This document shows positions 2,696 through 25,385 of a DNA stretch of 33,368 nucleotides, piece by piece. This DNA comes from an uncultured Pelagibacteraceae bacterium (GTDB taxonomy: Bacteria > Pseudomonadota > Alphaproteobacteria > Pelagibacterales > Pelagibacteraceae): NCBI GenBank assembly GCA_902635975.1, contig CACPQC010000009.1:1-33368 (forward strand), in the 5' to 3' direction. The notes beneath the pieces are model-generated. The model did no database searches. It saw only the letters and a program-made list of their open reading frames with translations, and was not told the DNA's origin. A program made the translations under genes and the position numbers. Numbering within the stretch: the stretch's first letter is position 1; each line of letters begins with the position of its first letter.

Positions 2696-3115
2696 TTAAA
2701 AATTATTTGCCCCTTTAGTATTTAAAGTAAGTTCTTCACCATCTATACATGCGGTGCCATCCCACATACAAGCTTTTACGACAAAACCTGTGGTGTGGGT
2801 GTCCACACAAAATCTATAACCTTCAGCAGCAACAACAGGCTCATCTGCTGTTGTTTCAAATAAATCTGTATTGATTGCATCAGTATTATCTTGGCTAGGT
2901 GTACATCCACTTTGAACAAAATAATCACCATAAATTGACTGGTATTCTTGTTCTTGAAGTGCGATTTGTTGCATAGAGTTTTGTGCAGCAGATTTTTTGG
3001 CACCACCTACATACCCATTATATGCAACTGTACCAATGGCTGCGAGGGTTCCGATGATTGCAACTACTATTAGCAGTTCAATCAAAGTAAAACCTCTAAT
3101 AAGTTTAACTTGCAA
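2696..3115 (-). CDS. Type IV prepilin (PilE/PilA-like), apparent TTG start
   Basis: A 139-aa prepilin with a short basic leader (MQVKLIRG) and the class III cleavage site G|FTLIELL, including Glu at +5, followed by a long hydrophobic helix VVAIIGTLAAIG. The C-terminal part has four cysteines, compatible with pilin disulfide loops. It lies 33 bp downstream of the larger prepilin gene and shares its helix and NGYVG/NGYIG sequence, so the two look like paralogues. In this frame a stop codon (TGA) lies only two codons before the TTG, so there is no ATG or GTG choice. It therefore uses a rare start, is translated by coupling, or has lost its start. It is probably a minor or low-level pilin. Confidence 0.85.
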   Translation of the reverse strand: MQVKLIRGFTLIELLIVVAIIGTLAAIGTVAYNGYVGGAKKSAAQNSMQQIALQEQEYQSIYGDYFVQSGCTPSQDNTDAINTDLFETTADEPVVAAEGYRFCVDTHTTGFVVKACMWDGTACIDGEELTLNTKGANNF

Positions 3116-4131: not shown

Positions 4132-4544
4132 TGGATTTATCAGAGTCTAAAGATTTTCTTGTGCATACTGCAAGCTTAAAAGAGGTAAGAGTCTTCTCAA
4201 GGGAAGTATTTGAAAAACTAAAAATAAATAATGATCTAAAGGAAGAATTGGTTTTAGCAATTGCTGAAGCAGCCCAAAATATAGTTAAACACGCATATAA
4301 AGGTGTTGAAAATACCGCTGACCACATGCAAATAAAAATTTCTCTTAAAGACGATAATTTAGAAATTGGGTTTTTTGATAAAGGAAAACCTGTTGTAGAA
4401 GAGAATATTCAACATAGAAAATTAGATGATATCAAACCCGGTGGTTTGGGGACTTTTTTTATAAAACAAATAATGGACGATGCGGTTTTTAAAAAAGATC
4501 AACAAAAGTGGGTCAATCATTTAATTTTATCTAAAAAAATTTAA
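4131..4544 (+). CDS. HATPase_c serine kinase / anti-sigma factor (RsbW/SpoIIAB-like)
   Basis: A 137-aa GHKL-fold protein, the usual size for RsbW/SpoIIAB. The N-box is EAAQNIVKHAY (Glu46, Asn50), the G1 box is FFDKGKP (Asp83, Gly85), and the glycine-rich ATP lid is GGLGTFFIKQIMD (about 104-116). It starts on the last base of the STAS stop codon. Its 3' end meets the convergent pilC gene, and the two stop codons share TTAA. Expected function: it phosphorylates the STAS protein and binds it when unphosphorylated; when free it holds another partner, classically a sigma factor. No sigma factor gene is visible in this window, so its effector could be elsewhere or could be something other than a sigma factor. 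Confidence 0.92.
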   Translation: MDLSESKDFLVHTASLKEVRVFSREVFEKLKINNDLKEELVLAIAEAAQNIVKHAYKGVENTADHMQIKISLKDDNLEIGFFDKGKPVVEENIQHRKLDDIKPGGLGTFFIKQIMDDAVFKKDQQKWVNHLILSKKI

Positions 4545-5788
4545 CCCCCCATAATCGCACCAACATTAAATATTGGTGAATACATCGCAATCATCAAACC
4601 ACCAATCATAATACCCATAAATACAATCATGATTGGCTCAATCAAACTTGACATATTATTTACGGCAGTGTCAAATTCACTCTCATAATATTTTGCAACT
4701 GAATTGAACATTTCATCTAGTTGTCCAGTTTGCTCACCAACAGAAACTAGTTGACTGAATGTTGGTGGGAACAGTGGTTCTTTTAAAAATAACTTTGTTA
4801 GTGTGTCACCTGAAAATACTCCTTTTTTTACATTTTCTAAAGCTTCTGTGACTACAACATTTTTACTGACGGACTTAGAGATTTCTATACTTTCTAATAA
4901 ATTCACCCCTGCCGCACTTAAATTTCCCATGATTAATGAAATTTGAGCTATTAAAGATTTTAAAATTAAATCCCCAAACACTGGTAATTTTAAAACTTGT
5001 TTATGCCACATATATTGTATTTTCGCATTTTTAGTTGTTAGGTACTTAAACAAAAAGTAACCTCCAACTAAAACTAAAAATAAAATTTTTCCACCAGCAC
5101 CTCTTAGAAAATCACTCATACCCATTATTATTGCTGTGGGTTTAGGTAAAGCAATACCCATACCTTCGTACATTTCAGCAAAGACTGGAACCACTTTGAC
5201 TAACATAAAAGCACTTACAACCATAGCAGTGGTAAACATTATGCCAGGGTACATAAGAGCACTTTTGATTTTTTTTTTAATTTTTTCCTTTTTTTCTAGA
5301 TCATCTACAATTTTCAAGAGAAAAACATCTAACTTACCACTGGCCTCACCTGCTTTGATTAAGTTTACATAGACATTATCAAAATATTGAGGATATTTTT
5401 CAAAATTTTTTGACAATGTTATTCCTCCCTCTAAGCCCTTTCTTATATCTTCGATTACTTCCTTAATTGCCGGGGACTCGAGTTGATCTCGTAGCATTGC
5501 AAGTGTTTGCAAAATCGGCAGTCCTGCTTTTACCATCGTTGCAAACTGTTTTGAGAATATTAAAATATCTTCTACTTTTACTTTTTTCTTACCAAATAAG
5601 GAAAGGCCTTTACTTTTAGCTTTAGTATTATCTTTTTTTTCGCCTTTTTTCTTCTTGGTTTTAACTAAATTTGTAATGATAAGTTTTTGCTCTTTAAGTT
5701 TAAAGGATGCTTCGTCCTGATTGAGAGCCTCTATCTCACCCTCAACATATTTTCCTGCAGAAATGCCTTTGTAAGCAAATAATTCCAT
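4541..5788 (-). CDS. pilC: Type IV pilus inner-membrane platform protein PilC (GspF family)
   Basis: A 415-aa GspF/PilC-family platform protein of normal length. It opens with FAYKGISAGKYVEGEIEA, typical of the N-terminal cytoplasmic segment, and has two GspF domains: FSKQFATMVKAGLPILQTL (about 80-100) and the second copy near ISLIMGNLSAAGVNLLESIE (about 285-305). Three hydrophobic segments are visible, the last being SSLIEPIMIVFMGIMIGG near the C-terminus. A Lys-rich linker (KTKKKKGEKKDNTK) lies near residues 44-60. It follows pilB with a 2-bp gap and ends the pilM-to-pilC operon. It sits in the inner membrane under the growing fibre and is turned by PilB for extension and PilT for retraction. 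Confidence 0.95.
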   Translation of the reverse strand: MELFAYKGISAGKYVEGEIEALNQDEASFKLKEQKLIITNLVKTKKKKGEKKDNTKAKSKGLSLFGKKKVKVEDILIFSKQFATMVKAGLPILQTLAMLRDQLESPAIKEVIEDIRKGLEGGITLSKNFEKYPQYFDNVYVNLIKAGEASGKLDVFLLKIVDDLEKKEKIKKKIKSALMYPGIMFTTAMVVSAFMLVKVVPVFAEMYEGMGIALPKPTAIIMGMSDFLRGAGGKILFLVLVGGYFLFKYLTTKNAKIQYMWHKQVLKLPVFGDLILKSLIAQISLIMGNLSAAGVNLLESIEISKSVSKNVVVTEALENVKKGVFSGDTLTKLFLKEPLFPPTFSQLVSVGEQTGQLDEMFNSVAKYYESEFDTAVNNMSSLIEPIMIVFMGIMIGGLMIAMYSPIFNVGAIMGG

Positions 5789-5790
5789 TG

Positions 5791-7542
5791 TTAACTAGCT
5801 GATAATACCCGTTCAAATTCCCTAAAATTTAAGTCTCCATTTGCAATCATTCTTCTGCCCATATCTTGCATGGTTTGAAAACCCTCTTTTATTGCGATTT
5901 CTCTTAATTCAGGTGTTGTTGCTTGTCTTAAAATTGCTTCTTTAATTGGTTTTGAAACAACTAATATTTCATAAATTCCTTGTCGACCTTTATATCCGCT
6001 GTCTTTACATTTTGCGCAACCTTTTCCCTTAGTCGCTTTTGTTCTTGAAGCTTGCTCAGGCGAAAAACCAAGGTCAGTTAAAACTTTTGGAGTTACATCT
6101 TCATCAGGAACTCTACAATCTTTGCAGTTTTTTCTAGCTAATCTTTGAGCAAGAACTAATTGTGTTGCAGCACTGATTAAATAATCAGGTGTTCCCATAT
6201 TTTGCAAACGTGTAATAGTACTTGGAGCATCGTTAGTATGCAGTGTGCTAAATACTAAGTGACCTGTCAATGCAGCTTTTAATCCAATGTCAACTGTCTC
6301 TTTATCCCTCATCTCTCCAACCAAGATTATTTCAGGGTCTTGACGTAAAAAAGATCTCAGTGCAGATGCAAAAGATAAACCTATATCATCTTTAATTTGA
6401 ACCTGTCCGACACCATCTAATTCATATTCGACAGGATCTTCTGCTGTTAAAATATTTAAGTGAGGTTTGCTTACCTCTTTTAAGATACTATAGAGTGTGG
6501 TTGATTTACCTGAACCAGTGGGCCCAGTAACCAGAATTAAACCTTGAGTGCTATGAATAGATTTCCTCAAATTTTTTAAATCCTGATCTTCAAAATTTAA
6601 TTGTTCAAGTGTTATATCCCCTGCGTCCTTATTAAGAATACGCATTACAATTCTCTCATTATTGGCTGTCGGTAAAATTGATAATCTTAAATCTACTACC
6701 TTACCATCTATTTTAAAATTTATTGCTCCGTCTTGAGGTAATCTTCTTTCTGCAATATCCAATTTACCCATAATTTTAAATCGGGTTACGACAGCTCCGT
6801 AATTATCATGTAAAAATTTTTTATACTCCTCCTGCTCTTGAAGCATTCCATCTAATCTGTATCTAACACGTGATGAGAATCGATAAGGTTCAATATGAAT
6901 ATCACTAACTCCTAATTTAATCGCCTCTGCTACAACTGCAGTACTGAATTTGATTACTTCAGACTCGTTTTCTAAAGCTTCAACTTCCTCTTCTGGTTTT
7001 TCCTCTAAAACTTCTCCAGCATCACCAAGATCTGAGTCAAACGTTTTAGTTTTTTCTTTACGTTCTTCTCTTATAGCTTCAGTCGTTACCTCTCCAGTTT
7101 CACTTTGTAGTTTTTGAATAAATTCAGATATTTGCGATACTTTAGCAGCATGAAGTTCAATATTTTTTTTTGTGATTGCTTTTAAGTTTCTCATTAATCC
7201 AAGTTTCGAACTATCTGAAATTGCTATGTGTAGATCTTTCCCATCAACTTTAAATGGCGCAACAAAATTCATGTTAATGTAATTAGATGGCAGAACAGAT
7301 TTAATTTCATCGGTAATTTGAATTTTTGATAAGTCTGCAACTTCTAGGCTTTGCTCTTTAACTAAAACATCTAGAATTTTATCTTCATCACACAGTTTTA
7401 ATTCAAAAACTGCATCAATTTGTGATTTATTTTTTTCAGTGCTAACTTTTTTAATATTAGGTAAATCTTTTCCTGAAATAATATCGTTATCAATTAAAAC
7501 ATTGATTAAGTTAATTTCACTTTCTCTACTAATTTTTAACAT
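5791..7542 (-). CDS. pilB: Type IV pilus extension ATPase PilB (GspE/MshE family)
   Basis: About 583 aa, using ATG 7542 directly after the secretin stop at 7544. The ORF-track start at 7563 would add seven residues inside the secretin gene. The N-terminal domain (about 1-150) resembles the MshEN/GspE-N region. An acidic linker follows (LEEKPEEEVEALENES), then the ATPase core: SDIHIEPY, Walker A GPTGSGKSTTL (about residue 340), Asp box, ILVGEMRDKET (Walker B region), and HTNDAPSTITRL. A four-cysteine zinc site (CKDC and CAKC) near the C-terminus separates it from retraction ATPases. It powers pilin polymerisation from the cytoplasmic face and acts through PilC and the PilM-PilN protein. Confidence 0.95.
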   Translation of the reverse strand: MLKISRESEINLINVLIDNDIISGKDLPNIKKVSTEKNKSQIDAVFELKLCDEDKILDVLVKEQSLEVADLSKIQITDEIKSVLPSNYINMNFVAPFKVDGKDLHIAISDSSKLGLMRNLKAITKKNIELHAAKVSQISEFIQKLQSETGEVTTEAIREERKEKTKTFDSDLGDAGEVLEEKPEEEVEALENESEVIKFSTAVVAEAIKLGVSDIHIEPYRFSSRVRYRLDGMLQEQEEYKKFLHDNYGAVVTRFKIMGKLDIAERRLPQDGAINFKIDGKVVDLRLSILPTANNERIVMRILNKDAGDITLEQLNFEDQDLKNLRKSIHSTQGLILVTGPTGSGKSTTLYSILKEVSKPHLNILTAEDPVEYELDGVGQVQIKDDIGLSFASALRSFLRQDPEIILVGEMRDKETVDIGLKAALTGHLVFSTLHTNDAPSTITRLQNMGTPDYLISAATQLVLAQRLARKNCKDCRVPDEDVTPKVLTDLGFSPEQASRTKATKGKGCAKCKDSGYKGRQGIYEILVVSKPIKEAILRQATTPELREIAIKEGFQTMQDMGRRMIANGDLNFREFERVLSAS

Positions 7543-7543
7543 T

Positions 7544-9091
7544 CTATAAAACCCTTGGTGCAATAAATATTAACATTTCTGTTAACATATCCTGTTTTTC
7601 AGTTCCTTTAAATAAATTTCCTAGAACAGGTACATTTCCCATTCCTGGTAATTGTTGTTTGTTATTTTTTATCGAATTTTTCTTTATTCCGCCAATAACT
7701 ACTATATCTCCATCTGCAATCAAAAGCTTAGTTTCTATCTGCATAGTGTTTATTGACGGATCGGCACCCGCATTCGATTTGACAGAGTCATTTTTGACTG
7801 TAACATCTAAAAGTACATTTCCATCACCAATAATACTTGGTGTAACTGATAATTCTAGATTAGCTGGTTTAAATTGGACATCCGCTCCCTCTGAGCCTGT
7901 AGCCTGATATGAAATTTCTTCACCTTGTTTAATATTAGCTATTTGGTTATCTAATGTAAAAACTTTAGGATTAGATATAGTTTTTCCAAGACCAAGTTTT
8001 TCTAAAGCTTGTATTTCAGCTTTTAAAACTGCTGACCCCGTTCTTTTTAATATACCAATACCACTCGTTGCACCTATTGCAGATGAAGTAAAATCTGTAA
8101 TTTGTCCCTCACCACCTGAGACCGTACCTAGGGTTGGAGTAATTGGCCCATCGGTCGCTGCTCCTCCTATTGTACCACCAACAATCTCTTGCTGTCTTGA
8201 GTAGGCTGCTCCTAGTCTTGTACCAAGTGCTTTTTCAAAATCTGAATTTGCCTCAACTATAAATGCCTCAATTAAAACTTGTCTTGTTTTTACATCAATC
8301 TCACTAAGAATTTTATCTACCACATCTAAATCTTCAACCTTACCTCTTACGATAATTGATCTTGTTGTAGCTTCTTCAGTAATTTGTATTGGTGAAAAAC
8401 TACTTTCACCTGTAGTTGCAAATAATTCATTGATTGTAGTCTTAGCTTGTGCGGGTGAAATATAGTAAAGTCTAAAAATTTCAGAAACAATTGGCTCGAC
8501 TGAATCCTCTAATTCAACTTTCTTTTTTACGGCTGCGGCTCTCGTTGATTTATATGTCTCTTGAGCTGTTAAAGTGGAAGGTGTGTGTACTCTAATTAAA
8601 TTACTAGACACATCAATATCAGCAGCAAAATTTTTCATATCTAACAAAGCATTAAAAGCTTTATCCCAAGGAACATTAATCAATTCAGCAGAAATTGAAC
8701 CTGCTACCTCATCACCTACTAAAACATTAATGTCTCCAACCTTGCCCATTAATTGCATTGCTTCTGCATAATCCAAATTTTTAAATTTAAAGGATACAGT
8801 TTGTTTTAATTCTGTAAATTCGTCTGGTATCAATAAATAATTTCTTTTTTGTTGTGCTGATATTTTTTTTCTTTTTTGCAAAGCTTTTGTATCCCCTTCA
8901 ACTGGCTTAGGGCCCATCTCCACAGTTTTTTCAATCTCTATTCGTCCAGACTTTCTTATATCATCTTTTATAAGAGGTGTATTATGCTTGAAACCTTTAC
9001 CCTTTTTAGAAAGAGTATTAGACGCACATCCATTTAAAACTAAAAACAATAATGAGATTAAAGGAATTATTTTTAATAATCTAATATTCAC
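7544..9091 (-). CDS. pilQ: Type IV pilus outer-membrane secretin, lipidated (PilQ/MshL-like)
   Basis: A 515-aa secretin, shorter than typical PilQ (about 700 aa) and close to MshL size. It begins with a lipoprotein signal whose lipobox is LNGC (cysteine about residue 22), so it is probably lipid-anchored. The periplasmic part contains an STN-like segment (VSFKFKNLDYAEAMQLMGK, about 95-115) and a secretin_N domain (IFRLYYISPAQAKTTINELF). The C-terminal secretin domain has VLIEAFIVEANSDFEKALG and the family signature VPVLGNLF, and ends in a hydrophobic strand. No AMIN domains are visible. It overlaps the PilP gene by 11 bp. It forms the outer-membrane gate for the pilus. Lipidation of the secretin itself may explain why no pilotin (PilF/PilW-type TPR) gene is seen nearby. 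Confidence 0.93.
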   Translation of the reverse strand: MNIRLLKIIPLISLLFLVLNGCASNTLSKKGKGFKHNTPLIKDDIRKSGRIEIEKTVEMGPKPVEGDTKALQKRKKISAQQKRNYLLIPDEFTELKQTVSFKFKNLDYAEAMQLMGKVGDINVLVGDEVAGSISAELINVPWDKAFNALLDMKNFAADIDVSSNLIRVHTPSTLTAQETYKSTRAAAVKKKVELEDSVEPIVSEIFRLYYISPAQAKTTINELFATTGESSFSPIQITEEATTRSIIVRGKVEDLDVVDKILSEIDVKTRQVLIEAFIVEANSDFEKALGTRLGAAYSRQQEIVGGTIGGAATDGPITPTLGTVSGGEGQITDFTSSAIGATSGIGILKRTGSAVLKAEIQALEKLGLGKTISNPKVFTLDNQIANIKQGEEISYQATGSEGADVQFKPANLELSVTPSIIGDGNVLLDVTVKNDSVKSNAGADPSINTMQIETKLLIADGDIVVIGGIKKNSIKNNKQQLPGMGNVPVLGNLFKGTEKQDMLTEMLIFIAPRVL

Positions 9092-9518
9092 TTTGCTCCT
9101 TTATCTGATTTTTAAAATTCATAATTAAATATTTATCCTCGGTAGCAAAAACAGCCTCTTTAGTTGTCATATCAACTAATTTTACACCGTCGCTGACCTC
9201 CTCAAACATTGAAACAGTTATTATTTCGCCATCTTGATTGATTAGAGAAATGAAGCTAGCTGAGTCTGACTTTATAATTCCTGCCAATTTATAAGTGTAT
9301 AAATCTATTCTTTTCTTTTCACTCAACGGAGCTCCTCCCTCTGTTATTACTTTAACTCCACCGGAAAAAGATGAGTCCCCAACAAATGGGTCATTTAAAG
9401 GTAAAGGTTCTTCCTTAGAGGAATTATTTTTATCGTGATTATCAGCGAGCAAATGGGTGCTGAAAATTAAAAAAGCTAATAAAACTAACTTTGAACTGAA
9501 TTTATTAAAAAAACTCAT
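9081..9518 (-). CDS. pilP: Pilus alignment-complex protein PilP-like
   Basis: A 145-aa secreted protein with a signal peptide ending around HLLADNHD. The visible lipobox cysteine of typical PilP is absent, so this one may be soluble or membrane-tethered by an uncleaved signal. A disordered acidic stretch carries NDPFVGD, like the NDPF-type motif before the folded part of PilP. The C-terminal domain LAGIIKSDSASFISLINQDGEI fits the GspC/PilP homology-region fold that contacts the secretin. Its start lies inside the end of pilO (14-bp overlap) and its stop inside pilQ. It should link the PilN-PilO inner-membrane ring to the secretin N domains. The assignment rests on fold-like pattern and operon order. 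Confidence 0.82.
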   Translation of the reverse strand: MSFFNKFSSKLVLLAFLIFSTHLLADNHDKNNSSKEEPLPLNDPFVGDSSFSGGVKVITEGGAPLSEKKRIDLYTYKLAGIIKSDSASFISLINQDGEIITVSMFEEVSDGVKLVDMTTKEAVFATEDKYLIMNFKNQIKEQSEY

Positions 9519-10188
9519 CTGCTAGCCCCACTATTGTTAAAGTTCCACTTACTTTTATCGCTCCAGTTGAATCTGATTTTACCACTTGTATCTTTTCTGA
9601 CTCAAAATTCAACATCTTATTAGATAGCGATAAAGCTCTTTTAAATTTGATATACCCTAAAAAGTTGCCATTAATCTCAAATTTTACTGGTATCGTGTAA
9701 TAGGCAATATTTTTAATTGCCTCTTTTTTATTTTTTGCTTTTTTTGGTTTTTTCTTTTTTTTCTTACCTTTATTTAAAATCTCTGATTTTGACACTTCCG
9801 TTGGTTTACCCTTCTCAATAACAGAAATGACTAAACCATTGATAGTAGCAAACTCACTTAAATTTTGATAAAGCCCTTCTACCTCAGCTTTTGAGTGAAA
9901 TAGCGTTGAATAATTTTCATATTTAGGCTTAATTTTTTTAATTTTTCTTTTCACAGAAATAATTTCGTTATTAAATTTTACTATCTCTTCCTGTTTAGTG
10001 TTCATATCAGTAATTTGAGCTTTTTTTTCTTTAACAATTGGATTTAAAACAGCATAGTAAATGATTAAGAAAATTATAATTGATCCAAGACTTATACCAA
10101 TTTTAATTAAAGTTTTTTTATCGGCAAAAGCTATAATTTTTGCTTTTAAGTCATCCATATTCAGATTTTTTAATTCATTTAAATCCAT
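9505..10188 (-). CDS. pilO: Pilus alignment-complex protein PilO-like
   Basis: A 227-aa bitopic inner-membrane protein. Cytoplasmic residues 1-30 are followed by one transmembrane helix (IGISLGSIIIFLIIYYAVL, about 31-52), a coiled coil (EKKAQITDMNTKQEEIVKF through about 100), then a ferredoxin-like C-terminal domain (VKFEINGNFLGYIKFKRALS, FESEKIQVV). This is the PilO/GspM layout at the usual length. A run of lysines (KGKKKKKKPKKAKNKKEA, about 141-158) interrupts the first half of the periplasmic domain and is unusual. It starts 2 bp after the pilM-pilN fusion and overlaps pilP, in the canonical M-N-O-P-Q order. It should pair with the PilN part of the upstream protein. Confidence 0.87.
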   Translation of the reverse strand: MDLNELKNLNMDDLKAKIIAFADKKTLIKIGISLGSIIIFLIIYYAVLNPIVKEKKAQITDMNTKQEEIVKFNNEIISVKRKIKKIKPKYENYSTLFHSKAEVEGLYQNLSEFATINGLVISVIEKGKPTEVSKSEILNKGKKKKKKPKKAKNKKEAIKNIAYYTIPVKFEINGNFLGYIKFKRALSLSNKMLNFESEKIQVVKSDSTGAIKVSGTLTIVGLADEFF

Positions 10189-10190
10189 AA

Positions 10191-12647
10191 CTATCCTTTA
10201 ATTTTTACGAAAACCTTAAATCCTTTCATTGTTTGATCACCAGCTTTAACTCTAGGCATTTTCATTGATGATAAAGATGCTTGGGTAATTAATTTTTTAG
10301 ATTGTAAATTTCTAATTAGCTGTAATATATCATTATCTCCAGCAGCAATCCCTGTTATAGAAACAAGTTTTTTTCCATCATACTCAACAAGATCAAATTT
10401 TACTCTGCTAGGAACGCTACTTGCAATCTGTGCTAAAATTCTATAGCTCAAATCTTTGTTAGACTTTAGACTGTTGCTAAGTTTAAGAGTGGTTGTCATT
10501 TTTTTTAATTCTTTTGATACTTTAGCGAGTTGATTTGATTTTGATGTATGCTCTGTAACCACAGTATCATACAGTTTAAGTTTGTTATTGTAATTATAGA
10601 TATTCCAGAAAGCTAATGTAAATAAAATTAGATATACTCCAACTACAGCCCCAACAAATCCCTTATAGGCAAAATTTGAAAAGGCTTTCATTTTCTTTTG
10701 CTTAATCATTCCTTCTCTATTTGGAAGAAGATTTATATTTTTAACAGCAGTTACAAATTTGTAATATCCAAATACATCAAGTTTTCTAAAAGCAAGACCA
10801 ACAGTTGTTGAAAAGTAAGACCGGTTAGTTAAGTTAATTTTACTCTCTAATTGTTGAGGTATTTTAAGTCCTTCAAAGGGATCAAATAAATTAAATCCTG
10901 TATTTACTAAAGTTTTTCTAAAACTTGATAAATAATCTTCAACATTTTCTAAATTTGATACAACTTTTATATTTCTAACCCTCTTTTCATATTTTGTTTC
11001 AAAATCTTGAACCGCTTGTTTAACTTGTGTCATAAAACGTCTTACTAATGCGTCTTTTTCTTCTTGATCTTGCGACTCTTTTAAAATTTTTCTATCTTGC
11101 CCACGTAAAAAAATGTCAGTAATTATTGGGTTATTGTTGTATAGGATCATTACGTAATTTTCATCCAAACCAAATTCCAGCATTGCAGTAAAATTTGTAT
11201 CCTCTGTTTTATTTGAAATTTGATTTATTTGGTCAACTGCAGATTTTAAAGCAAAACATTTAACATCAATGATAACAGGATTTAATCCACTATTTTTAAT
11301 AATATTTGTATAATTATTTATGTCAGCTAATTTTGAAGCAACAAATAAAATATCCATTGTATTATCTTTTGAGTTTCTATTAATGACTTGATGAAATATA
11401 GAGTAGTCATCTAAGTTATCTGTCAACTGGACTAAATTTTCCCATAACGAGTTAGTATCTATTGCTTTTTTTAATTCCTCATCATTCATTAATGGTGCAG
11501 TAACTACTCTGATAATTGCATTAGTAACTGGGATTGCAATAGCAGCATTAGGAGTTGTTATTTTTGATTTCTGTAAAGCTACATTTAATTCATCACCTAC
11601 TTTTTGTTCATGATCAACAATAGCCGCGTCCTCAGGTAAGTCAATTGGATGAACATAAAATCTTTCTAAAACCCATTGATTAGCTTTATTTGAAGAAATT
11701 TGCGTTAGTCTAATTTCTTTGTTAGTTATTTCAACACCAACAATTTCTTCGCCTTGCGCAGTCTTCTTCCCTAACCTAGATTTTAAAAAGTTATTAAATT
11801 TTTCTTTTACTTTATTTTTATTAAAACTCATTTTTGGACTACTTGAATCTTTTTTTCCAAATGAAGGTGCTTTAAATTTTATATCTTTAAATTTATTTAA
11901 AAAATTTTTAACCTTTGATTGTTCTTCACTATTTGTTATTTCAGTCTGATTTAAAGAAGTATTATTTTCTAACTCCGTTTTTGTTTCAACAGTTTCTTTA
12001 TTTACAGTTTCTTGTAAAGGGACATCGTCTTTTCTTGCTGGCAATGTTATATCTGTTGTAATGGTTTCGTTAGAAGTAGTTTCTAAATTTTGTGGTTGTG
12101 TTCGTTTGTCAGTTTCTTGTGTCGACTTTTGTTCTAATTCTTTTTGTTCTTTTTCTTTTTGCGCATGAACATCGTCAAACCATTTTTCTAAAATCGGAAT
12201 TGCTTCTTCTAAGTCTGGAGTTCCCGATGATGAAATTTTTTGTTTTCCGTCTATATAGAGCCTACCAACCCAATTTTTTGACTTAAGCTCTCCTTTGTAT
12301 TTATCTTGTCTGACATAAATATGTAATCTGCCATCTTTCTTGTGAATTACTTGATGTTCTTTTTTTTCTTCTGTTCTTTGTGTCGTATTTTCAACTAACG
12401 GGCTTTCACTTTTAACTTCTTGCTCTTTATTAGTGTCGTTTTCATTTAAGTTGTCTTCTTTTGATAAATTTTTATTAATTTTATCTTCTTCAGGTTGTAT
12501 ATTTTCTGAAGTTGTTGAAGTTTCCTCATTAGAGGGAGTTACTTCTTGCTTTGTATCTGGAGTAGGTGCAACTGAAGATTGATCATCCTTATTTTGATCA
12601 TTCTTATCAATGATGACACCAAACTTTTCTTTTTCTTTGTCGTCCAT
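10191..12647 (-). CDS. pilMN: PilM-PilN fusion with long N-terminal extension
   Basis: I chose ATG 12647 (818 aa). The ORF-track start at 12698 is a GTG, and its extra 17 codons consist of operator-like repeats. Three parts are visible (numbering from 12698). Residues 18-317 are a charged, Glu/Thr/Asn/Lys-rich low-complexity region holding a small folded-looking segment (about 114-178). Residues 318-620 are PilM, an actin-like ATPase: VGVEITNKEIRLTQIS start, AIAIPVTNAIIRVV, LEFGLDENYVMILY, QAVQDFETKY. PilN follows with INLLPNREG at 655-663, one transmembrane helix (676-700), a coiled coil, and a C-terminal ferredoxin-like domain. PilM normally binds the INLLP motif at the PilN N-terminus, so fusion places both partners in one chain. 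It is the first gene of the operon and couples cytoplasmic PilB/PilC to periplasmic PilO/PilP. Length and architecture are unusual. Confidence 0.9.
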   Translation of the reverse strand: MDDKEKEKFGVIIDKNDQNKDDQSSVAPTPDTKQEVTPSNEETSTTSENIQPEEDKINKNLSKEDNLNENDTNKEQEVKSESPLVENTTQRTEEKKEHQVIHKKDGRLHIYVRQDKYKGELKSKNWVGRLYIDGKQKISSSGTPDLEEAIPILEKWFDDVHAQKEKEQKELEQKSTQETDKRTQPQNLETTSNETITTDITLPARKDDVPLQETVNKETVETKTELENNTSLNQTEITNSEEQSKVKNFLNKFKDIKFKAPSFGKKDSSSPKMSFNKNKVKEKFNNFLKSRLGKKTAQGEEIVGVEITNKEIRLTQISSNKANQWVLERFYVHPIDLPEDAAIVDHEQKVGDELNVALQKSKITTPNAAIAIPVTNAIIRVVTAPLMNDEELKKAIDTNSLWENLVQLTDNLDDYSIFHQVINRNSKDNTMDILFVASKLADINNYTNIIKNSGLNPVIIDVKCFALKSAVDQINQISNKTEDTNFTAMLEFGLDENYVMILYNNNPIITDIFLRGQDRKILKESQDQEEKDALVRRFMTQVKQAVQDFETKYEKRVRNIKVVSNLENVEDYLSSFRKTLVNTGFNLFDPFEGLKIPQQLESKINLTNRSYFSTTVGLAFRKLDVFGYYKFVTAVKNINLLPNREGMIKQKKMKAFSNFAYKGFVGAVVGVYLILFTLAFWNIYNYNNKLKLYDTVVTEHTSKSNQLAKVSKELKKMTTTLKLSNSLKSNKDLSYRILAQIASSVPSRVKFDLVEYDGKKLVSITGIAAGDNDILQLIRNLQSKKLITQASLSSMKMPRVKAGDQTMKGFKVFVKIKG

Positions 12648-12668
12648 TTTTTTATATTTTTTTTTTAT

Positions 12669-12722
12669 TCTAACACAAACATACCGAATCTCTAACACAA
12701 ATAAAAAAAAAGTCTAACACAA
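12669..12722. repeat. Three TCTAACACAA motifs phased at exactly 22 bp
   Basis: Perfect copies begin at 12669, 12691 and 12713, all in the same orientation, so each step is 22 bp, about two helical turns. They sit immediately upstream of the pilMN start codon at 12647, in the expected 5' untranslated or promoter-proximal zone. Same-face phasing suggests cooperative binding of a regulator. They are too short and too A+T-rich between copies to be a CRISPR. Confidence 0.85.
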
Positions 12723-12837
12723 TTTTCAACTTAAGGTGGTCATTTTGGGTTAAATCTCAAATAAGTATTGATTTTACTTACTTTCTTAAAAAAATAAAAA
12801 AATACTTAAATCATAATTTTATAATTAATTTTACATC

Positions 12838-12875
12838 ACTCTAACACAATTAAATTTATAACCTTGTGTTAGAGT
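12838..12875. repeat. 12-bp perfect inverted repeat made of two motif copies
   Basis: ACTCTAACACAA (12838-12849) and its exact complement TTGTGTTAGAGT (12864-12875) are separated by 14 bp. They contain motif copies four and five in opposite orientation. The pair could be a dyad operator. It could also form a weak hairpin in RNA, but the stem is A+T-rich. The T-run lies only on its plus-strand side, where no gene ends, so a terminator role is not favoured. Confidence 0.8.
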
Positions 12876-12950
12876 TTTTGATTTGAAATATAAATACAGA
12901 AAACTCAATAAAATCAATATTTTTTGAATTTTAATCATTAAGTTGTAAAT

Positions 12951-12980
12951 TTGTGTTAGAGTAAATTATTTTGTGTTAGA
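12951..12980. repeat. Two further motif copies in opposite orientation (TTGTGTTAGA)
   Basis: Perfect copies at 12951-12960 and 12971-12980, 20 bp apart, are oriented opposite to the 12669-12722 group. Both extend to TTTGTGTTAGAG. With the other five copies they make seven in about 310 bp. I found no other perfect copy when scanning the rest of the window by eye. Confidence 0.85.
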
Positions 12981-13289: not shown

Positions 13290-13595
13290 TTATTCAATTA
13301 ACGATCTTCCTGTTATGTCTGTAGTAAATTGTTGGTATATCATCACTGATAGTGTCTCAACATTACTAACAACTCTATTATAATCAAAAGACCAATCAAC
13401 TTTGGTACAATCTAACTCTTTGTAATAATAAATTTTTGTTTTTTTTATTGATGGATCGATTTCTTCCGTAAGTATATTTAATAATTTTGTTTTTTTATCA
13501 ATTGCAAAATTATACCTACATACATTTGAGGTTGTCCAATAAAATATTACAGAAATTAAAATCGCAACGAATGACATAACTTTAGTTAAGCTCAT
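13290..13595 (-). CDS. Small exported or membrane-anchored protein coupled to the GAF-phosphatase
   Basis: A 101-aa hypothetical protein. One hydrophobic N-terminal segment (VMSFVAILISVIFYWTT, about 6-22) is an uncleaved anchor or signal peptide. The rest is a soluble domain rich in Lys, Tyr and Asp, with cysteines near residues 26 and 63 that could pair in the periplasm. Its start overlaps the stop of the GAF-PP2C gene (ATGA), which implies translational coupling and a functional link. It has no recognisable catalytic motif. A periplasmic sensor or inhibitor partner of the phosphatase is possible from context alone. Confidence 0.7.
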   Translation of the reverse strand: MSLTKVMSFVAILISVIFYWTTSNVCRYNFAIDKKTKLLNILTEEIDPSIKKTKIYYYKELDCTKVDWSFDYNRVVSNVETLSVMIYQQFTTDITGRSLIE

Positions 13596-14878
13596 TGAAC
13601 ACTATCAACTGTCACAATTGTTAAATCATCTTTTTGTATCATTCCTGCTTTGACAATATCTTCAATCATTAACTTAAGTCTTTTATTATTCGGAGTGTGT
13701 TGATATTTTTTAATATACTTTTGGAAACCTTCAACTTCGAGCATGTCACCTGAAGGATCTCTTATCTCAGTGATGCCATCGGTAAAAATATACATTGAGC
13801 TGTCAGAAAAGTTTGTAGTGGTTTCTTTATATTTTATTTTTGAAGTTATACCTAGGGGTGGACCAGCTTCAGAAAAGTTAGAAAAGTTTTGATCTTTATC
13901 AATTACAAGTGGTGGTTCATGACCTGCGTTTGATAATAATAATTCTTTTTTATTACTATCATAAATTCCAATCAACATTGTTACGAACATTCCTCTTGCA
14001 GCGGTTTCACATATTTCTTTGTTAAGTAAATTTAAAAGATCTGAAGTTGAAAAAATAGTTTTGCTTAAACATCTATACAAACTTGATGCCTTTGACATCA
14101 GTAAGGAAGACTTGATACCTTTGCCTGAAACATCAGCAACACCAAAACCATAAATTCCTTTTGCAATTTCAGAAAAATTATAAAAATCACCAGAAACAAC
14201 TTTCGCTGGAATATTTATTCCTGCAATTGGAAAGTCTTCATTTTTATTCTTAGATAATAAAGTTTTTTGTATTTCACCAACTATTTCTATTTCTTTTTGC
14301 ATTCTATTTTTGTCAATTAATTCTTTAGCCATTTTTGCATTACGAATTGCTAAAGCAGCTGGGGCAGATAATGTCTCTAACAATTTTCTATCATTCTCCT
14401 CGAATAACTTAGAGGATGTTTTTTTATTTAAACAATGGATTACTCCTATACATTCATTTGCAGCAATTAATGGTGAACATAGAACTGAATAAGTTGTAAA
14501 ATTTGTTTTGTTATCTAAATCAAAATAAAACTCAGCTATTTCTCTTACATCTTTTCTAACATCTCCAACTCTAATACATTTTTTTTGAAGAACTGCTTTT
14601 CCCATTACTCCTTGAGTTAGTGGTATCTCGTATTCATCAAGGTATGATTGATATTTGGATGCAATACATTGGAAAACTTGTTTCTTTTCATCTATCAAAA
14701 AAATATTTGCAGCTTGGGCATTTATTCTTTTTATGATTACTTCTAATGCAGTTTGCAAAGTTTCATTCAAATCTAAAGAGGTAGCAAACTCTTGATTCAT
14801 TTGCGTAATTATTGCCAAATCTTGGTTTAAATCGTTATCTTTTGTAATTGGCACTACTTTTTTTGATTTAAAAAACAT
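13592..14878 (-). CDS. GAF-domain SpoIIE/RsbU-type PP2C serine phosphatase
   Basis: A 428-aa cytoplasmic protein. Residues 20 to about 185 form a GAF domain (LDLNETLQTALEVIIKRI, PLTQGVMGKAVLQKK, YSVLCSPLIAANECIGVIH), a helical linker follows (KNRMQKEIEIVGEIQKTLL, about 190-210), and then a PP2C domain. The metal-binding acidic residues are visible in KVVSGDFYNF (D231), GVADVSGKG (D249), FTDGITEIRD and QKDDLTIVTV, so the enzyme looks active. It should dephosphorylate the STAS antagonist encoded at 3832-4131, as RsbU/SpoIIE-type enzymes do, in response to a small molecule, protein or redox signal bound by GAF. It is divergent from pilD and lies just upstream of the pilMN promoter region. It is the second PP2C of the window, with the same REVSGD/VVSGD and DV(A/S)GKG style as the Amt fusion. 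Confidence 0.94.
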   Translation of the reverse strand: MFFKSKKVVPITKDNDLNQDLAIITQMNQEFATSLDLNETLQTALEVIIKRINAQAANIFLIDEKKQVFQCIASKYQSYLDEYEIPLTQGVMGKAVLQKKCIRVGDVRKDVREIAEFYFDLDNKTNFTTYSVLCSPLIAANECIGVIHCLNKKTSSKLFEENDRKLLETLSAPAALAIRNAKMAKELIDKNRMQKEIEIVGEIQKTLLSKNKNEDFPIAGINIPAKVVSGDFYNFSEIAKGIYGFGVADVSGKGIKSSLLMSKASSLYRCLSKTIFSTSDLLNLLNKEICETAARGMFVTMLIGIYDSNKKELLLSNAGHEPPLVIDKDQNFSNFSEAGPPLGITSKIKYKETTTNFSDSSMYIFTDGITEIRDPSGDMLEVEGFQKYIKKYQHTPNNKRLKLMIEDIVKAGMIQKDDLTIVTVDSVQ

Positions 14879-23648: not shown

Positions 23649-24397
23649 TGTGCTACCCAATCATTAGCCCATTTGTATAAATTAATACTGCCAAATCTAC
23701 TCCAATTTACACGAAAAAAATTCACTTGCATAGGATCAGCTAGACCCTCCTTTTTACAATAGGTTCCTGGGCTTGTTTCAGTAGAATCTTCAGGTAATTT
23801 TTTTTGACAAATATAAAGGTTTTCAAAAAGTTTAAATCCAGCAGAACTAACCTCATAAAACTGGTCACTTACACTGTAGTATGTACCATCTTTCGAAAAG
23901 CATATACTACTACCAGCATCTGGTATTCGATTATTTTCATCACTACCATTGTTTGCTATGGCCATTAAAACTTTTGTCTCATCGATTCTAATTTGTTGAA
24001 CAGATAATTCATCACTAGTTGCGCCCTCATCATCCCAATTTATATCCATAGAACATCTTGTAGTAAACTCATGAAAATCTTTTTTTGTTGTACCATCCCA
24101 TTTATCTCTAACCAAGTCAGTAAATCTAGTTAACTTCAAGCCATTAGTTTCTAAAACTATTTCATTTCCATCTCTATAAATATCGACTTGTACAAAGCTA
24201 TATTGTCCTCTTTGGACTTGTGAAAAAATACTTCTCATCATGGAAGCAACTTTCGTAGCTTGGGATCTAACGTCTCTTTCCGCTTGCCATTTCAAAAATG
24301 GTTTAAAACCAATAGCTGACATTGCACCTATAATGGCGATGACGACAATTAATTCTAAAAGTGAAAATCCTTTAACTTTCTTTACCTGCATTTGCAT
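23645..24397 (-). CDS. fimT: Minor pilin FimT/FimU (GspH)-like
   Basis: About 250 aa starting at ATG 24397 (ATG 24391 is an equal alternative; a GGAAAG sequence precedes both). The leader MQMQVKKVKG is followed by FSLLELIVVIAIIGAMSAIGFKPFL with Glu+5. The mature region contains a GspH/FimT-type beta domain (MRSIFSQVQRGQYSFVQVDIYRDG) and several cysteines. The start lies within the 3' end of pilT, so the two genes overlap by about 26 bp. It is the first minor pilin of the operon, matching the fimU/fimT-pilV-pilW-pilX-pilY1 order known from gammaproteobacteria. Confidence 0.87.
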   Translation of the reverse strand: MQMQVKKVKGFSLLELIVVIAIIGAMSAIGFKPFLKWQAERDVRSQATKVASMMRSIFSQVQRGQYSFVQVDIYRDGNEIVLETNGLKLTRFTDLVRDKWDGTTKKDFHEFTTRCSMDINWDDEGATSDELSVQQIRIDETKVLMAIANNGSDENNRIPDAGSSICFSKDGTYYSVSDQFYEVSSAGFKLFENLYICQKKLPEDSTETSPGTYCKKEGLADPMQVNFFRVNWSRFGSINLYKWANDWVAQ

Positions 24398-25385
24398 CAA
24401 TCTTTCCAGCTGCAACAAGGTTCTCTAAAGATTTAGACATAGTAACCATACCATCTTTAACAGCGGTCTGCATGATACTTGGTATTTGATGTATTTTTGC
24501 TTCTCTAATTAAGTTTTGAATAGGAGCAGTACATTTCATTATTTCAAAAGCACCGACACGACCTTGGCCATCTTTTGTTTTTAATAATCTTTGAGTTACC
24601 ACCATCTTTAAAGATGTTGATAATTGAGCACGAATTTGAGCTTGTTGCTCAGGTGGAAACACGTCAATAATTCTATTTATAGTATTAGGCGCTCCACTTG
24701 TATGCAAAGTTCCAAAAACTAAATGACCTGTTTCTGCTGCAGTTAATGCAAGTGAAACTGTTTCTAAATCTCTCATCTCACCAACTAAAATTACATCAGG
24801 ATCTTCTCTAAGTGCAGCTTTAAGTGCAGTTGCAAAAGTTTGTGTTTGTTTACCAACTTCTCTATGTGAAACTATACTTTTAGCATCAGTGTGAATAAAT
24901 TCTACTGGATCTTCAACAGTGATAATATTTGCAGTTCTTGTTCTATTAATTTCATTAACAATTGCTGCAAGTGTTGTAGATTTTCCTGAACCCGTTGGCC
25001 CCGTTACCAGCACTAAACCTTTGTGCATATCAATAATATCATATAAAGCATCTGGAAGATCAAACTGTCCCATCTCTGGTATTTTGCTTTCAACTCTTCT
25101 CAAGACTGCAGCTGGACCATTTAAAGTTTTATAAAAATTTGCTCTAAACCTTAATCCACTAATTGTGACAGAAGAGTCTAGCTCATGAGTATTCTGAAAT
25201 TTTTTCGTCTCAACCTCATTACAATTTGTTGTCATTAAATCTATTAGATCTTGAGGTTTTACCAATACCTCCTTAACCATAATAATTTCACCAGTTTGTC
25301 TATAAGCTAATGGAGAGCCACTTCGAATATGAAAATCTGAAATTTTTTTATTATTCTTTGCTAATTCTTCTAATTTTTCAAACAT
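24372..25385 (-). CDS. pilT: Type IV pilus retraction ATPase PilT
   Basis: A 337-aa hexameric ATPase of normal PilT length. The N-terminal PAS-like domain starts with SDFHIRSGSPLAYR. Walker A is GPTGSGKSTT (129-138), the Asp box is VEDPVEF, Walker B is DVILVGEMRD (about 197-206), the His box is HTSGAPNTINRIID, and the C-terminal retraction motif variant is PIQNLIRE. It lacks the four-cysteine zinc site of PilB. It is the first gene of the minor-pilin operon on the minus strand, divergent from the autotransporter genes. It depolymerises the fibre, driving twitching or DNA uptake. Its presence indicates a retractile type IVa pilus. Confidence 0.96.
   Translation of the reverse strand: MFEKLEELAKNNKKISDFHIRSGSPLAYRQTGEIIMVKEVLVKPQDLIDLMTTNCNEVETKKFQNTHELDSSVTISGLRFRANFYKTLNGPAAVLRRVESKIPEMGQFDLPDALYDIIDMHKGLVLVTGPTGSGKSTTLAAIVNEINRTRTANIITVEDPVEFIHTDAKSIVSHREVGKQTQTFATALKAALREDPDVILVGEMRDLETVSLALTAAETGHLVFGTLHTSGAPNTINRIIDVFPPEQQAQIRAQLSTSLKMVVTQRLLKTKDGQGRVGAFEIMKCTAPIQNLIREAKIHQIPSIMQTAVKDGMVTMSKSLENLVAAGKIDANAGKES

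Follow-up and report, generated by a model that had tools for sequence, protein, structure and literature searches.

A PilM–PilN fusion protein of SAR11 bacteria with a predicted DNA-binding domain of integrase type and a matching array of sites upstream of its operon

What is the role of the approximately 300 residues that precede PilM in a type IV pilus assembly protein of Pelagibacteraceae (SAR11)? The window, a stretch of 33,368 nucleotides, belongs to a 57% complete assembly of 746,626 bases (~747 kb). It carries an open frame at positions 10191–12698 on the minus strand, 835 aa counted from GTG, in which a conserved ATG at 12647 gives the 818-aa product, here called PilMN (Table 1). The sequence-only reading of this DNA had described the union of PilM and PilN in one polypeptide and did not mention the ~300 aa ahead of PilM, which include the most unusual part of the protein.

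Table 1. Coordinates of pilMN, its parts, the neighbouring operon genes and the upstream sites in the window
Feature	Position	Strand	Evidence or remark
Long form of PilMN, 818 aa: predicted arm-type DNA-binding domain at the N-terminus, then PilM and PilN	10191..12647	-	
Low-complexity N-terminal tail, poor conservation	12369..12647	-	
73-aa stretch including the ~65-aa integrase-like arm-type DNA-binding domain (predicted)	12150..12368	-	
Linker from DNA-binding domain to PilM, low-complexity, fast-evolving	11766..12149	-	
PilM actin-like domain	10791..11753	-	Pfam match 11124-11738
PilN INLLPNRE motif, residues 638-645	10713..10736	-	PilM-binding in other species
Helix of the PilN part with hydrophobic transmembrane stretch	10578..10673	-	model helix 365-396 and hydrophobic sequence
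PilN periplasmic domain	10212..10439	-	PF05137
PilO, next gene in the operon	9505..10188	-	PF04350
Probable PilP	9081..9518	-	position and size; no family hit
PilQ secretin	7544..9091	-	TIGR02515 above cut-off
PilB-type extension ATPase	5791..7563	-	
PilC platform protein (T2SSF)	4541..5788	-	
Site 1, TCTAACACAA (= TTGTGTTAGA read in operon direction)	12669..12678	+	
Site 2, TCTAACACAA	12691..12700	+	
Site 3, TCTAACACAA	12713..12722	+	
Site 4, TCTAACACAA	12840..12849	+	
Site 5, opposite orientation	12864..12873	-	
Site 6, opposite orientation	12951..12960	-	
Site 7, opposite orientation	12971..12980	-	

The fusion that had been claimed is confirmed: a single frame matches both PilM_2 (PF11104; E = 6e-19, 68.7 bits against a cut-off of 27) and PilN (PF05137; E = 6e-7, 29.9 bits against a cut-off of 22.8); the TIGR01175 score of 92 lies under that family's cut-off of 133. 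The stop and restart near residue 640 that the sequence-only reading had considered does not occur, as the frame is uninterrupted in the matches from related genomes, and PilM and PilN share one frame in every named Pelagibacteraceae locus fetched (>100 loci). Since the relatives have no stop in the frame, a sequencing error or a missed stop as the source of the fusion was rejected. The fixed 1:1 stoichiometry of PilM and PilN proposed earlier also holds, as a trivial consequence of the fusion, and the sequence-only reading placed the DNA correctly in Pelagibacterales.

The survey of PilM–PilN fusions suggested by that reading found them both in Pelagibacteraceae and in other families of Alphaproteobacteria. 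Six of the loci fetched have the two parts together in a single frame covered by the PilMN profile; three belong to the same family, and L208, L209 and L210 to other families. Of four proteins checked with Pfam, three showed both domains, the PilM match of L210 being slightly under the cut-off; L209 gave PilN only. Across the class, a PilN-domain match occurred in 49 of 385 genomes, always in open frames of at least 345 aa, and the smaller of these proteins (345–455 aa) may be GspL-like. The PilMN complex has been described as an orthologue or equivalent of GspL (PMC4471445), and a natural PilM–PilN fusion has been published for Clostridioides difficile (PMC6916266). The GspL plan, the C. difficile protein and the fusions in other Alphaproteobacteria rule out that the fusion is a novelty; it is real but ordinary.

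An AlphaFold2 model of PilMN (524 aa), built from an alignment of 50 rows in 48 of which INLLP is retained, had PilM structures as its best matches in the PDB (Foldseek E = 3e-21). The top match was an engineered Pseudomonas aeruginosa PilM:PilN1-12 construct (5eou), suggesting that the fusion is compatible with PilM–PilN binding. For the linker and the INLLP motif, pLDDT values fell in the 30s, and the low-confidence residues, 329–364, include the motif. Docking of the PilN motif onto its own PilM within the fusion is a possible arrangement.

Among the ~300 residues ahead of PilM, most of them poorly conserved, a block of ~65 aa (HKKDGRLHIYVRQDKYKGELKSKNWVGRLYIDGKQKISSSGTPDLEEAIPILEKWFDDVH) is nearly invariant, and the sequence around it is probably disordered. 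Mean column identity over the 73-aa stretch at 12150–12368 was 91% across 37 rows. Differences per 60 codons were 20.1 synonymous and 3.9 amino-acid in the domain, compared with 19.9 and 10.8 in PilM, indicating that the domain is under stronger protein-level constraint than PilM itself. The block occurs as a single copy in the assembly.

A profile search covering 397 genomes of the order matched this N-terminal domain in long PilMN proteins and in two proteins of ~425 aa. Both of the latter are tyrosine recombinases (PF00589), found in two genomes adjoining a tRNA-Leu gene. The PilMN domain and the integrase N-terminus are identical at 38 of 62 positions (61%; pairwise E = 2e-25), and the catalytic domain of tyrosine recombinases (PF00589) had no match in the PilMN protein of the window. 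Weak hits in G026 (SecD), G340, G422, G221 (sensor kinase) and G049 proved on inspection to be chance matches. None of the families of Pfam, NCBIfam and the PDB matched the domain alone; two unknown PHROGs matched it weakly (E about 1e-3), neither the domain nor its integrase was found in phage records and viral contigs, and bacterial AP2 hits were too few to make a profile for comparison.

The predicted fold of the domain consists of four strands followed by a helix (AlphaFold2 pLDDT 84), and no structure reached E 0.001 in a Foldseek search with this model. Four strands plus a helix are consistent with the fold of arm-type domains, and the N-terminal domain of the lambda and Tn916 integrases is an arm-type DNA-binding domain. 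Together with the homology to the integrases, this suggests that the N-terminal domain of PilMN is very probably an arm-type DNA-binding domain derived from an integrase.

Upstream of the operon, between the preceding gene and the ATG, lie seven exact copies of TTGTGTTAGA within 312 bp (12669–12980), three of them reversed relative to the other four. Most are separated by roughly a whole number of helical turns, two or more, and the site nearest the start codon ends 21 bp ahead of the ATG. The whole 747 kb assembly holds eight exact copies of TCTAACACAA, seven in the array and one elsewhere, which rules out a chance origin of the repeats. When one mismatch was allowed, a window-wide count of seven was reached in 15 of 100 shuffles, so that the number is not unusual in itself; the clustering and the exactness are. 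In 65 aligned promoters, identity to the reference was 98% for site bases versus 48% outside them, and the eleventh base was G in 87% of the sites. The far-upstream sites were conserved equally with the proximal ones.

We also considered whether the array is a DNA uptake sequence; this reading was rejected, because only about eight copies occur per genome and the domain lies on the cytoplasmic side. A promoter scan of the upstream region gave no more hits than in shuffled sequence, none of them convincing. Within the array region, at about 12894–12920 (about -270 to -250 from the ATG), there is a conserved block around TTGATTTTATTGAG that matches no site and is a possible promoter element.

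The domain and the array occur together across genomes. Where 900 bp or more of upstream sequence was available, each of the 71 loci with the domain had three or more sites, and each of the 22 PilMN loci without it had none. In 150 related genomes, at least six copies of the site were counted in 16 of the 20 that bear the domain, versus at most five in each of the 130 that lack it. The sole exception of its kind is a locus at a contig edge (L084, 1–500), where the frame is truncated and the domain is accompanied by 502 bp of upstream sequence with no site. Divergent domain-bearing loci, most of them from other genera and with domains that have diverged as well, keep the same 10-mer at differing positions and orientations. 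On the PilMN tree the presence of the domain changes only twice; the strict match between domain and array thus depends on few independent events. These changes would most simply represent one gain, followed by joint loss of the domain and the array in the short-form clade.

The integrase loci provide a second view of the repeats. In two SAR11 genomes, the integrase–tRNA-Leu loci (L194, 2485–7422; L195, 2354–7294) contain TTGTGTAAGAG repeats at matching places and are possibly an integrative element with its attachment sites. TTGTGTAAGAG differs from the pilus consensus in one base of 11. Each locus holds four exact copies of TTGTGTAAGA, itself one base off the pilus motif, where 0.07–0.09 are expected, and none of 200 shuffles reached four; near copies are also present. 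Repeat pairs stand directly upstream of the int gene, at matching places in both genomes. One genome (G181) has both genes: it contains ten TTGTGTTAGA copies, seven of which are at pilMN, and four TTGTGTAAGA copies, which all lie at most 5 kb apart around the integrase. As a background, 74 stretches from downstream of pilMN, averaging 6 kb, were scanned, and none held a near-motif 10-mer in four copies; in a first version of this test the figure was 5 of 79, presumably owing to stretches that took in the promoter. The case that the domain reads the repeats draws its greatest strength from this pairing of two homologous domains with two near-identical sets of repeats.

We propose that PilMN uses its N-terminus to bind the array in front of its own genes and thereby controls the operon, probably in a negative sense. 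This reading draws on homology and co-occurrence, and we put its probability at roughly two in three. PilMN would then be a membrane-anchored, DNA-binding form of a pilus assembly protein. Its N-terminal domain would recognise a site of 10–11 bp, TTGTGTTAGA(G), as the co-occurrence and the near-identical repeats of the integrase suggest, and TTGTGTTAGAG DNA is the site expected to be bound. In PilN topology, all sequence before the helix is cytoplasmic. The N-terminus would thus be cytoplasmic and the domain could reach the array DNA through the flexible linker of ~130 residues that joins it to PilM, with the PilN helix anchored in the inner membrane.

Occupancy of the array would most likely repress pilMN-O-P-Q-B-C, resulting in negative feedback on the amount of the assembly platform. 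The integrase of prophage KplE1 binds arm-type sites that overlap its own promoter and acts as its own repressor; the same behaviour is predicted for many tRNA-linked integrases (PMC2951348). This precedent, combined with a site 21 bp from the start codon, makes negative feedback the most likely role; since a convincing promoter was not found, repression rather than activation is a judgement. The domain and the array probably arrived jointly, by fusion of an integrase promoter and 5' end to pilMN. More speculatively, the assembly state, the nucleotide state of PilM or the binding of PilB could modulate the repression. A doubtful but possible extension is that free and assembled PilMN differ in their access to the array; the pilus machine would then itself be a transcription regulator anchored in the membrane, and the cell would measure assembly on its DNA by means of an integrase domain domesticated with its arm sites.

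Several other explanations were weighed against autoregulation of this kind. The bound array may stimulate the operon, for instance if it recruits the promoter to PilMN once the machine is assembled. The distal sites, at about -200 to -330, would fit such a role, and membrane-anchored activators of the ToxR kind exist as a parallel; however, the proximal sites sit in the region that RNA polymerase or the ribosome needs to engage, and the precedent of the integrase is repression, so that we consider stimulation unlikely. We give less chance to the idea that the domain binds the array mainly to keep the pilus locus tethered to the membrane, at the place of machine assembly. An array of 312 bp with mostly two-turn phasing, distal sites as conserved as proximal ones and a protein anchored in the membrane through a long linker would all suit a tether, but proximal sites near the start codon are better suited to regulation. 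It is improbable that a different regulator binds the array, with the domain serving in RNA or protein binding and both simply tracking one lineage. The tree, with only two changes of domain presence, leaves room for this, and PUR-repeat folds, which are nucleic-acid binding, were among the weak structural hits. Nevertheless, the integrase homologue's own repeats differ in one base over 11, which is unexpected unless the domain reads them, and the short-form clade lacks the array and the domain alike.

Two further explanations do without DNA binding at the present locus. The one implied by the sequence-only reading, that there is only a PilM–PilN fusion altering the stoichiometry or cycling of PilM, starts from a fusion that is real and conserved; since that fusion is spread more widely than the N-terminal domain and appears older, it cannot account for the domain or the array, and we regard this explanation as very improbable. 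That the domain and the array are now functionless, left over from an integrase inserted at the pil locus, is hardly credible: an integrase origin makes their joint arrival plausible, but the domain is under strong purifying selection, the sites were kept while the adjoining DNA diverged, and the positions of the sites turned over while the motif was retained. Binding of the array by PilMN with regulation of its own operon is the reading we favor.

In the operon context of PilMN, PilO and PilQ were assigned by family and PilP by position and size alone. Several neighbouring genes of the window, all on the minus strand, were recorded alongside. A fusion of an ammonium transporter (PF00909) with a SpoIIE-type phosphatase (PF07228) adjoins the pilus cluster at 2–2050 and runs past the window edge, and a protein with GAF and SpoIIE phosphatase domains (13592–14878), encoded upstream of the region that holds the pilMN promoter, adds a second SpoIIE domain to the cluster. 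Between the array and the GAF–SpoIIE gene lies an ORF of 101 aa (13290–13595) with an N-terminal hydrophobic stretch, for which ETRAMP, below its cut-off, was the sole family match. A pilin at 2696–3115 has a sub-threshold match to ComP_DUS (E = 7e-4), a DNA uptake sequence receptor family. A second T2SSE-type ATPase of 337 aa (24372–25385), which lies at the end of the cluster of minor pilins, is possibly a PilT-type retraction motor.

PilMN resembles PilM and PilN of type IVa pili in having both domains, the INLLP motif and an operon with PilO, a probable PilP and PilQ. It differs from them in that the two are one polypeptide here, with a predicted DNA-binding domain ahead of PilM. GspL of type II secretion systems and BfpC of type IVb pili likewise combine an actin-like cytoplasmic part with a membrane and periplasmic part in one chain; in contrast to these, the PilM and PilN models match PilMN and the INLLP motif is retained. 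The C. difficile PilMN shares with the SAR11 protein that it is a natural fusion, whereas its host is a monoderm and a different PilM–PilN contact motif has been proposed for it; the available excerpts of that report do not mention a DNA-binding domain (PMC6916266). Tyrosine integrases have a homologous domain and, close to the gene, short repeats that occur in either orientation; some of these enzymes bind such sites within the promoter of their own gene and act as self-repressors (PMC2951348). Unlike them, PilMN has no recombinase domain and is joined to a pilus assembly protein. ToxR-type membrane-anchored regulators and bifunctional autoregulators of the PutA type are membrane or membrane-associated proteins that control their own or related genes. 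What sets PilMN apart from both types is that it belongs to the core of the pilus machine and carries a DNA-binding domain predicted to derive from an integrase.

To our knowledge, specific DNA binding has not been reported for any pilus assembly protein of type IV systems, and a search of the open-licence literature found no such case. What merits attention at this locus is the combination of an apparent integrase-type domain on a pilus assembly protein with a matching, conserved array at its own promoter. SAR11 bacteria are generally thought to have few regulators. If the proposal is true, assembly of a machine and expression of its genes would be coupled in a single polypeptide, in bacteria that form the most abundant group among the heterotrophs of the surface ocean (PMC12636525). 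It would also provide a clear case of an integrase DNA-binding domain domesticated together with its sites.
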